Source: Paludisphaera soli (GTDB taxonomy: Bacteria; Planctomycetota; Planctomycetia; Isosphaerales; Isosphaeraceae). Taken from it: 64,000 nucleotides of DNA. Positions 60,399 to 62,905 of this stretch are shown here, one piece after another. The notes beneath the pieces were generated by a model that did no database searches, was not told the origin of the DNA, and saw only the letters and a program-made list of their open reading frames with translations. Each line of letters starts with the position of its first letter. Position 1 is the first letter of the stretch. The DNA lies in NCBI RefSeq assembly GCF_011064595.1, contig NZ_JAALJI010000001.1:434001-498000 (forward strand), written 5' to 3'. Both the position numbers and the translations under genes were made by a program.

Positions 60399-60527
60399 GA
60401 TTAATCGTTGGAGACGGCGAGACTTCCGGCCCCCATCCGTCGACGCCTCTCGACGGAACCCTCCGAATCCGCCCCGCCCCCCGCCCCGCCCGCGACCTGG
60501 AACCCGCCCCCATCCAGGAGAACCGCC

Positions 60528-61286
60528 GTGAACATCGAACGCCGATCCTTCGTGCGCCGGCTCTTCCCCGCCGCCCTCCTGGCCGCGTCCCTCGGCGTCT
60601 CGGCGGCCGGCGCGCAGTCGGTCGCCCCGGTCCGCGTCCGGGTCTGGTGCGAGGGGGAGTCGTCCCCTTCGGCGTATCCCGACGGGGTCGACGTCGTCCT
60701 GGCCGACTCCCTGGCCCGCCAGCCGGGCCTCGCGGTGACGCGCGCACGCCTCGGCGAGCCCGAGGACGGGCTCTCGGACTCGGACCTGGACCGGACCGAC
60801 GTCCTGGTCTGGTGGGGCCGCGCCCGCCACGACGAGGTCCCGGACGCCCGCGCCCAGGCCGTCGCCGGCCGCGTCCGCCAGGGGAGGCTCGGTCTGGTGG
60901 CCCTCTATGCGTCGTGCGGCAGCAAGCCGTTCCGCCTCTTGATGGACAGCATGCCGTGCGAGCCGGGGAGCTGGCGCGAGGACGGTCGGCCCGAGTTCAT
61001 CACGGTGAAGGCGCCGGAGCACCCGATCGCGGCCGGCGTGACCTCGTTCTCCATCCCCAAGACCGACATGTTCTCCGAGCCCTTCGCCGTCCCCGAGCCC
61101 GAGACCGTCGTCTTCGTCTCGTCGTGGGAGCGCGGGGAGACCGTCCGCAGCGGGATGACCTGGACCGTCGACAAGGGCCGGGTCGTCTACCTCCGCACCG
61201 GCTCGGAGTCGTTCCCGGTGCTCTTCCACCCCTCGGTCCGGCTCTCGATCACGAACGCGGTGTTCTGGAGCGGCCGGCGGTCCTGA
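60528..61286 (+). CDS. Tat-exported ThuA-like protein
   Basis: A 252-aa protein starting at GTG 60528 with AGGAG 8 nt upstream. The N-terminus carries a twin-arginine export motif (ERRSFVRRLF) and a hydrophobic stretch ending at ASLGVSAAGAQS. The mature part fits the ThuA-like glutamine-amidotransferase fold: DVLVWWGRARHDEV, SKPFRLLM, PEHPIAAGV and SGMTWTVDKGRVVYLRTG. The position that is usually LHSGHYSKPF reads LYASCGSKPF here. ThuA proteins are linked to trehalose or polysaccharide use, but the reaction is unknown. Confidence 0.85.
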   Translation: MNIERRSFVRRLFPAALLAASLGVSAAGAQSVAPVRVRVWCEGESSPSAYPDGVDVVLADSLARQPGLAVTRARLGEPEDGLSDSDLDRTDVLVWWGRARHDEVPDARAQAVAGRVRQGRLGLVALYASCGSKPFRLLMDSMPCEPGSWREDGRPEFITVKAPEHPIAAGVTSFSIPKTDMFSEPFAVPEPETVVFVSSWERGETVRSGMTWTVDKGRVVYLRTGSESFPVLFHPSVRLSITNAVFWSGRRS

Positions 61287-61356
61287 GCGATTCGCAGGCA
61301 CCCAGACTGCATGCGACCTCTCGTCCACGGGCGTCTGGGCGGGATTGACTGGGTTG

Positions 61357-61384
61357 TTGACTGGCCGCGGGTGCGACCTATAAT
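61357..61384 (+). promoter_or_regulatory. Strong sigma70-type promoter before the peroxiredoxin-like gene
   Basis: TTGACT (61357-61362) and a perfect TATAAT (61379-61384) are 16 nt apart. It is one of the best promoters in the window. The predicted start is near 61391. Confidence 0.65.
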
Positions 61385-61390
61385 CGAGCG

Positions 61391-61637
61391 ATCGTCGCGT
61401 CGGCGAGTGGCGACGATTCCAACACGGCCGCAAAATACAAAGCCTTCGAAAGCCTGCAGTTTCACCGGCCCAGTAGACCAGCGACAACGCTTTCTCCAGA
61501 AAGCTGAGCGTACCGACGGGCGCGCCGACGGACGGCGAGCCTCTCGCGTGGACCGATCGGTGGTTCGTCCTGTGGGCGAGGGAGTCGCTCCTTCGACTAC
61601 CGGCCCAGACCTCAAACCCCAGACGGAGTCAGCATCG
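61391..61637 (+). promoter_or_regulatory. Long structured 5' leader
   Basis: About 247 nt between the predicted start and the ATG hold no gene. At the 5' end ATCGTCGC (61391-61398) pairs perfectly with GCGACGAT (61410-61417). Further on, GCTTTCT (61489-61495) pairs with AGAAAGC (61498-61504), and the overlapping ACGCT (61487-61491) can pair with AGCGT (61507-61511), giving two competing structures. I recognise no known riboswitch consensus. Confidence 0.45.
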
Positions 61638-62255
61638 ATGCGGAAAGTCCTCCTGAGCCTGGCCGCCCTGGCCATCGTGGCCCCGGCCTTCGCGGGCGAA
61701 CGCTACAACAAGGTCGTGAAGCCGGGCGACAAGGCCCCCGACTTCTCGGGCATCCCGGCCGTCTCGCCCTCGGGCGAGCAGACCAGCCTCACGCTGTCCG
61801 ACGTGAAGGAAGACGTCGTCGTCGTGGTCTTCCTGGCCAACCACTGCCCCGCGGTCGTGGGCTGCGAGGACCGCCTCAACGAGTTCACCAGCGAGTACAA
61901 GGACAAGGGCGTCCGCGTCGTCGGCCTCTGCGTCAACGACATCGATCAGGACAAGCTCCCCGCCATCAAGAAGCGGGTCGCCGACAAGAACGACGGCAAG
62001 ATCAACTACATCTACGGGTACGACGAGACCCAGGCCGTCGGCAAGGCCTACGGCGCCGTGAACACGCCGTCGTTCTTCGTCCTCGACAAGGATCGCACGA
62101 TCCGCTACCTGGGCTCCTTCGACGACAACATGCAGGAAGCCAAGGCGACCAAGCACTACGTCAAGGACGCCGTCGACGCCCTGCTCGCCGGCAAGTCCCC
62201 CGCGATCGAAGAGACCAAGCCCTTCGGCTGCGGCATCCAGTACACCAAGAAGTGA
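61638..62255 (+). CDS. Exported peroxiredoxin/thioredoxin-like protein
   Basis: A 205-aa protein with a signal peptide (VLLSLAALAIVAPAFAG) and an AhpC/TSA-like thioredoxin fold. VKPGDKAPDFSGIPAV is the start of the fold. The active segment is FLANHCPAVVGCEDRL, where this subfamily has one Cys in NHCP and here also a second. GAVNTPSFFVLDKDRTIRYLG and the terminal FGCGIQYTKK complete it. It probably handles thiols or peroxides outside the cytoplasm. A strong promoter and a long leader precede it. Confidence 0.85.
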   Translation: MRKVLLSLAALAIVAPAFAGERYNKVVKPGDKAPDFSGIPAVSPSGEQTSLTLSDVKEDVVVVVFLANHCPAVVGCEDRLNEFTSEYKDKGVRVVGLCVNDIDQDKLPAIKKRVADKNDGKINYIYGYDETQAVGKAYGAVNTPSFFVLDKDRTIRYLGSFDDNMQEAKATKHYVKDAVDALLAGKSPAIEETKPFGCGIQYTKK

Positions 62256-62299
62256 GCCGAGGAGGCCCCTCGGCCTCGCCGCTCCTGAAACCCCCTCGG

Positions 62300-62324
62300 G
62301 CCGCCGGACTCCTCGTCCGGCGGC
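62300..62324 (+). terminator. Hairpin between the two thioredoxin-fold genes
   Basis: GCCGCCGGAC and GTCCGGCGGC form a perfect 10-bp stem with a 5-nt loop, followed by TCGATTCGCTT. It may end or reduce read-through into the next gene. Confidence 0.5.
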
Positions 62325-62368
62325 TCGATTCGCTTACCCCCCCCGGCCACTCCGAGGAATCGAACACC

Positions 62369-62905
62369 ATGTTCCGCAAGTCCGCCCTCGTCCTCGCGGC
62401 CTGCCTGGCCGGTTCGCTCGCGGCCCCGGGGCGCGCCGACGATCCCAAGGCCGGCCCGATCGCGCTCCAGCAGCTCACCTGGGCCGAGTTCGAGAAGCAC
62501 CTCGCCTCGACGGACGGAGCCAAGTACACCCTGGTTGACGCCTGGGCCACCACCTGCGCGCCCTGCAAGGAGAACTTCCCGCACCTCGTCGAGATGCACG
62601 AGAAGTACGGCCCCAAGGGGCTCGCCGTCGTCTCGCTCTCGCTCGACGACGCCGAGGACTCCAAGGCGATCGCCGAGGCCGAGAAGTTCCTCAAGGAGAA
62701 GCACGCGACCTTCACGAACGTCCTGCTGAAGGAAGAGTTCGGCGCGGGGTTCGACCGGCTGGACATCAGCGCGATCCCGGCCGTCTTCCTGTACGGCCCC
62801 GACGGCAAGGAGGTGAAGCGGTTCACCATGGATGATCCCAACAACCAGTTCACCTACGACGAGGTCGAGAAGGAAGTCGCCGCGCGGCTGTCGGCCCCGA
62901 AATGA
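62369..62905 (+). CDS. TlpA-like exported thioredoxin
   Basis: A 178-aa exported thioredoxin-fold protein. It has a signal peptide (ALVLAACLAGSLAAPGRA) and a redox motif in VDAWATTCAPCKENFPHLV (CAPC), followed by the cis-Pro region ISAIPAVFLYGPDG. TlpA/ResA proteins reduce disulfides in the periplasm, for example during cytochrome c maturation. GAGGAAT lies about 9 nt before ATG 62369. It follows the peroxiredoxin-like gene and may be its redox partner, inferred from adjacency. Confidence 0.88.
   Translation: MFRKSALVLAACLAGSLAAPGRADDPKAGPIALQQLTWAEFEKHLASTDGAKYTLVDAWATTCAPCKENFPHLVEMHEKYGPKGLAVVSLSLDDAEDSKAIAEAEKFLKEKHATFTNVLLKEEFGAGFDRLDISAIPAVFLYGPDGKEVKRFTMDDPNNQFTYDEVEKEVAARLSAPK

Follow-up and report, generated by a model that had tools for sequence, protein, structure and literature searches.

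The window, i.e. the whole stretch of 64,000 nucleotides of Paludisphaera soli that was analysed, contains a gene coding for a redoxin that is preceded by a strong promoter and a long predicted leader. This raises the question whether the leader controls the redoxin gene and, if so, through which kind of RNA element. The features concerned are the following:

61357..61384, + strand: promoter TTGACT-16 nt-TATAAT, from the promoter scan; it recurs at the loci of the family
61391..61637, + strand: predicted 5' leader of 247 nt, its start placed from the -10 box; blocks of it are kept in six genomes of the genus
61391..61417, + strand: 8-bp inverted repeat with an 11-nt loop at the leader start; letters present, low pairing probability
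61475..61512, + strand: most conserved leader block, holding the hairpin AACG(CTTTC[TCCA]GAAAG)CTGAG CGTA, from the genus alignment
61519..61541, + strand: hairpin GGC.CGCCG[ACGGA]CGGCG.GCC, found by eye; its loop varies within the genus
61552..61567, + strand: conserved leader block ACCGATCGGTGGTTCG, the first ten bases being the same in all six genomes of the genus
61625..61628, + strand: Shine-Dalgarno-like GGAG, inside the conserved CAGACGGAGT
61638..62255, + strand: redoxin gene of 205 amino acids with AhpC/TSA and Redoxin domains, ATG at 61638
62296..62328, + strand: 3' hairpin of 14 bp with loop TCCTC, between the redoxin and thioredoxin-like genes
62369..62905, + strand: thioredoxin-like gene, next downstream of the redoxin gene, from the domain search

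The promoter, consisting of TTGACT (61357-61362), a 16-nt spacer, and TATAAT (61379-61384), agreed with the consensus at 11 of 12 positions. It was the sole promoter-like site in 60400-62900 (about 2.5 kb), where 0.1 was expected from shuffled sequences. The near-consensus promoter described by the first-pass annotation was hence borne out, as was, by the letters between promoter and ATG, its long leader, the predicted 247 nt being counted from 7 nt past the -10 box, where transcription would start, to the ATG at 61638. A gene with a ThuA domain lies upstream of the leader. The redoxin itself is probably exported, judging by eye from its signal-peptide-like N-terminus. The possibility that the gene extends further upstream in frame (ORF 61311-62255) was set aside, as in relatives such as L008, L009, and L010 the open frame comprises only 205 codons and hardly exceeds the redoxin gene.

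A first explanation may be a riboswitch, for a metabolite or a redox signal, in which two stems compete, in keeping with the long leader, the redox gene downstream, and the letters of two overlapping stems. Indeed, both GCTTTCT (61489-61495) with AGAAAGC (61498-61504) and ACGCT (61487-61491) with AGCGT (61507-61511) were present in the leader, with three 5'-side bases in common. The two stems had been described as mutually exclusive, which did not hold, as AACG/CGTA and CTTTC/GAAAG nest in a single hairpin with a 3' bulge CTGAG and, in the window, A.A as the outermost pair. This hairpin (61486-61512) is the most conserved one of the window leader. In the six genomes of the genus, 94.4% of the cells of the nested form AACG(CTTTC NNNN GAAAG)CTGAR CGTT were paired, G004 deviating at two inner pairs, and ACGCT/AGCGT had lost one pair in four of the six. 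Within the full window leader, the pairing probability was about 0.74 for GCTTTC/GAAAGC and about 0.08 for ACGCT/AGCGT, the latter stem being nearly missing from the ensemble. Similarly, the perfect 8-bp hairpin noted earlier at the leader start was present in its letters (ATCGTCGC, 61391-61398, and GCGACGAT, 61410-61417), but its pairing probability in the full leader was only 0.09-0.17, and by eye the repeat was not preserved in all six genomes of the genus. Compared with dinucleotide shuffles, the full leader had a z of 0.60, 145 of 200 shuffles folding at least as well. Neither the nested nor the alternative stem displayed a two-sided change among the six genomes, in which the conserved stems vary too little to speak for or against covariation, and RNAalifold yielded no consensus structure from a MAFFT alignment of 18 leaders. 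The earlier statement that no known riboswitch class matches was confirmed: at gathering score, the sole Rfam match in the window was a tRNA elsewhere and 20 relative loci gave none, two weak sub-threshold matches being found in 61340-61660 (E 1.7 and 3.8). A two-state leader switch was rejected on account of the nested stems, the second stem broken in four of six genomes, and the folding z; a riboswitch of this kind is thus very improbable.

A second explanation holds that the leader is an ordinary long UTR without a regulatory element, its conservation stemming from the surroundings of the promoter and the ribosome-binding site. The z of 0.60, the lack of an Rfam match, and the lack of covariation in the genus are in its favour. 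The family set comprised 41 loci from 41 Isosphaeraceae genomes; no match was taken from G022, G026, G060, and G062 of the order, and the family counts do not include the paralogs (L070 and L076-L078) or the outgroup loci (L079-L086). A BLASTN search with the leader gave clear matches, of E 2.2e-69 to 3.3e-10, in the remaining five genomes of the genus; among 45 genomes, the best hit after these was a 47-base match in G022 (E 8.2e-4). A search of the window's genome for further copies of the leader matched only the window itself at E<=0.001. When scored against the hexamers of the window, with TTGACA also allowed, a promoter reached 11 or 12 of 12 before 26 of the 41 family loci, the leaders having 131-268 nt. 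Alignment of 18 leaders from other genera revealed, by eye, a common A-rich stretch, RACGCTC, CTGCGRGA, and a GC-rich hairpin. Anchors on ACGCTC were set by hand in 29 of the 41 loci, leaving 12 unanchored. RACGCTC was situated 43-52 nt past the predicted start in 14 of the 29 (among them L013, L016, L022, and L075, which have weak promoters of 8-9 of 12), 59-67 nt past it in four g9 loci, all with weak promoters, 83-98 nt past it in nine loci of the window's genus and g7, and 194 and 15 nt past it in two loci. The base after CGC was T in 23 of 25 hand-anchored loci, CGC itself having been the anchor. Both the placement of the ACGCT block in these 14 loci and the keeping, within the genus, of internal blocks distant from promoter and start codon speak against an ordinary UTR, which is judged unlikely.

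Furthermore, an HMM trained on 17 leaders from other genera detected 11 of the 24 family leaders held out (E 0.0098-0.75; 0.75 for the window leader), and 1.6 Mb of background gave no hit at E<=10. It missed 13 of the 24, and five of the 11 matches were confined to the first 64 model positions, largely promoter. These matches are taken to reflect homology of the leader, the indication being weak for the window considered by itself. A genome-wide module of promoter and ACGCTC was considered and rejected: the exact pattern occurred at five places in 45 genomes, four of these being redoxin leaders, and the reversed-pattern control gave one match. This pattern misses most redoxin leaders and has little bearing on looser forms. 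The only non-redoxin TTGAC/TATAAT/ACGCTC at redoxin-leader spacing in the 45 genomes was found at G023:C52:21497-21594 and could be due to chance.

Conservation in relatives, which the first-pass annotation had named among the checks on its reading, was thus found, as the promoter, the blocks, and the place before the redoxin gene recur. This family-wide recurrence of promoter, internal leader, and position supports a cis-acting leader, and the window leader is conserved and probably cis-acting. As to the RNA-level switch or RNA-binding-protein site proposed before, the ligand switch with competing stems is not supported, and a protein site may exist in view of the CsrA homologs treated below. 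The leader would most likely set the amount of redoxin after transcription begins, via translation or mRNA lifetime, and would act through fixed hairpins rather than as a ligand switch.

A clue to how it may do so came from the 3' ends of the relatives, counted on 40 loci because the contig of L075 ends there. The best 3' hairpin carried CCATCC in its loop in 12 of these 40 loci with a readable 3' end:

CCATCC loci: L016, L017, L021, L024, L025, L026, L028, L029, L030, L067, L073, and L074

In 11 of the 12, the loop of a leader hairpin contained GGATGG (loops of up to 15 nt being allowed in the search), L073 having GGAATGG against CCATCC; both hexamers and the 12-locus set were picked by eye after the data had been seen. 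The 12 loci span seven genera (g2, g8, g9, g10, g15, g19, and g21), in which a distance of about 70-145 nt separates the GGATGG hairpin from the start codon downstream, and the CCATCC loop starts 55-92 nt past the stop codon. Whereas the loops stay constant in these loci, the stems of both hairpins change in compensating pairs, and the mean identity of the stem bases flanking the loops was 0.32 for the 5' hairpin and 0.47 for the 3' hairpin. For example, the leader hairpin reads caggctcagaa[AGGATGG]ttctgagcctg in L030 and, at the same place, ccaccggggccggc[GGGATGG]gccggccccgatgg in L067. A short upstream ORF from the ATG within GGGATGG was set aside, being by eye inconsistent between genera. 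The 7-mers GGGAUGG/CCAUCCC alone would pair with -11.4 kcal/mol. The mean unpaired probability of the 3' loop was 0.96-1.00 in all 12 loci.

Without reference to the hexamers, though after that look and with author-chosen thresholds, the best 3' loop was also compared with every hairpin loop of the leader: a complement of at least 6 nt occurred in 10 of 40 loci, whereas 100 sets of shuffled leaders had a mean of 1.03 and a maximum of 4. A 7-nt complement occurred in five loci against 0.13 in shuffled leaders (maximum 1), and the second-best 3' hairpins gave a loop complement in one of 39. Hence, complementary 5' and 3' segments beyond chance were present in the relatives, within predicted UTR limits. 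Loops holding either hexamer were found in three of 1381 strong hairpins in 1.6 Mb of six genomes and in two of 839 hairpins in five genomes having the pair; on these counts, the idea that the loops derive from a generic hairpin family was rejected. In addition, L020 and L068 have no clear GGATGG leader hairpin, and their 3' loops are also altered, to CCAACCC and ATCACCC, respectively. L020 thus differs from its congener L016 at both ends, as does L068 from L025, L026, and L067, which fits joint loss in two cases.

This suggests that the GGATGG and CCATCC loops form a 5'-3' UTR kissing interaction in the relatives. The preferred explanation, with a probability of roughly 55%, is a conserved cis-acting redoxin leader whose fixed hairpins tune output and whose 5' loop, in seven genera, kisses a 3' loop. 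In the cell, the leader GGATGG loop would pair with the 3' CCATCC loop and tie the mRNA ends together, either within one mRNA, as we infer, or between two. The contact may guard the ends or set translation, and the 3' hairpin may end the transcript. In a scan of four of the 12 loci, the CCATCC hairpin was terminator-like in L017 and L026 and not in L029 and L030.

Not all loci display the pair equally well. The leader loop had a poor unpaired probability in L074 (0.18) and L030 (0.38) and a middling one (0.57-0.68) in L025, L026, L028, and L029. The leader stem was short in L024 (four pairs) and L074 (five pairs), and the leader loops of L017, L021, L025, and L026 counted 11-15 nt. Elsewhere, L018 combined GGATGG with a 3' loop CCATCAC, L019 had GAGATGG and a best 3' hairpin that lacked CCATCC, and L007 and L064 had a partly paired GGATGG near the Shine-Dalgarno sequence without a 3' partner. 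The hairpin pair was missing in loci of g5, g6, g7, g12, g13, g14, g16, g17, and g20; L013 (g12) has both hexamers, but elsewhere.

The loops may also be kept for separate reasons, for instance the leader loop by a protein and the 3' loop by folding or termination, their complementarity resulting from chance and common descent. All 12 loci are indeed related, and the joint changes on supported branches number about two. A Fisher test on the association of the loops over the 40 loci gave p 1.7e-6 with kinship ignored. The tree-aware test, which was underpowered and counted L007 and L064 as having the leader loop despite the part-paired hexamer, gave 2-4 supported independent pairs, about 1.8 joint changes, on average none in the opposite direction, and p 0.5. 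Against separate reasons stand the exact match of the loops in 11 of 12 loci, the rarity of such loops elsewhere, the excess of complementarity over shuffled leaders, and the fact that most of each loop is complementary (3' loops of 6-8 nt in 12 of 12 loci, leader loops of 6-9 nt in eight of 12). Separate causes are considered rather unlikely.

With respect to the window itself, neither a GGATGG nor a CCATCC loop was found in the six genomes of its genus. No 5'-3' UTR pairing was found at its own locus, where the longest complement between leader and 3' loops was 3 nt, the best in genus g1 being 4 nt. Matches of 7-9 nt between leader and 3' UTR do occur in the genus, at positions that by eye differ per genome, and the 3' hairpin at 62296..62328, which occupies the position of the CCATCC hairpin in the seven other genera, was not among the terminators in the terminator scan. 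The hairpin at 61519..61541 is a possible counterpart of the GGATGG hairpin of the other genera. The kissing loops may be ancestral: an Isosphaeraceae redoxin mRNA with kissing GGAUGG and CCAUCC hairpins, kept in seven genera despite changing stems and lost in the lineage of the window, is a tentative scenario with a little less than even odds. On that scenario, the genus of the window would have shed the loop pair and retained the promoter, the ACGCT hairpin, and the other blocks.

A serious contender, as main rival or as partner of the kissing loops, is CsrA. Leader sites of CsrA/RsmA combine a GGA at the Shine-Dalgarno sequence with another in the loop of a hairpin, and the CsrA consensus is RUACARGGAUGU. 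Such sites are not known to include a 3' complement. The same two placements of GGA occur in the leader studied here, a putative CsrA target. CsrA dimers could thus bridge the two GGA motifs and repress translation, the 3' loop complement being incidental or masking the site. Homologs of CsrA were found in all 45 genomes of the order searched (4-13 each), ten of them exceeding the cut-off in the window genome (G000). Furthermore, several leader loops read ARGGATGG, close to the consensus; in the window, a small hairpin loop contains ACGGA, and ACGGAG is found at the Shine-Dalgarno sequence. GGA was present in the leader hairpin loop of all 12 loop-pair loci, but among the six members of the window's genus only G000 and G002 showed it by eye, so that it seems not to be kept there. 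Nor does a CsrA site explain the exact 3' complement CCATCC, kept over divergent stems, or the constant last G of GGATGG. On balance, this rival is considered rather unlikely. The kissing closure favoured above would perhaps compete with CsrA for the same GGA.

As far as the excerpts of the literature used here go, several mRNAs and viral RNAs offer a comparison. In the icaR mRNA of Staphylococcus aureus, UCCCCUG of the 3' UTR pairs with UAGGGGG of its own 5' UTR, which blocks the Shine-Dalgarno sequence and calls RNase III (PMC3868564). The loop pair of the relatives is similar in that a short C-rich 3' UTR motif would pair with the 5' UTR of its own message. It differs in that the 5' partner is not the Shine-Dalgarno sequence but a site about 70-145 nt before the start codon, and in that both partners are hairpin loops kept across several genera. 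In the hbs mRNA of Bacillus subtilis, a 5'-3' UTR interaction affects stability and protects from RNase Y (PMC7821165); unlike the present case, it concerns a 14-nt pairing in one gene that is not described as paired hairpin loops in the excerpts of that account. RNAIII, icaR, and hbs are named there as mRNAs with pairing between their own 5' and 3' UTRs, each in one species (PMC7821165). The nearest mechanical likeness is offered by the 3' translation enhancers of plant RNA viruses, true kissing hairpins in which a 3' hairpin loop kisses a 5' hairpin of the same RNA (PMC8708638). These depend on viral RNA and eukaryotic translation factors, and no kinship is claimed. A published account of the redoxin leader or the loop pair was not found among the open-licence PMC papers retrieved. 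If true, the loop pair would represent a bacterial mRNA closed by conserved kissing loops, and would mean that its two ends can be kept in contact by selection, here across seven genera. It would also offer a concrete candidate RNA target for these planctomycetes, with their 4-13 CsrA homologs per genome.

Some minor observations concern related hairpins and leaders. In L012, L014, and L066 (g17), the stem of the 3' hairpin, not its loop, holds CATC(C) and GGATG or GGTG, possibly a remnant of the loop motif or a chance likeness. The leaders of second-paralog redoxins L070 (G063), L076 (G018), and L078 (G032) contain AGGATGGGTT about 95-100 nt upstream of the start codon. In L078, AACCCATCC occurs about 150 nt behind the gene, a 9-nt complement that could be due to chance in stretches so long. 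Lastly, the loop is TCCG in 25 of the 160 perfect hairpins of at least 8 bp in the sampled stretches L087-L106 of G014 (Singulisphaera), suggestive of a repeated element.
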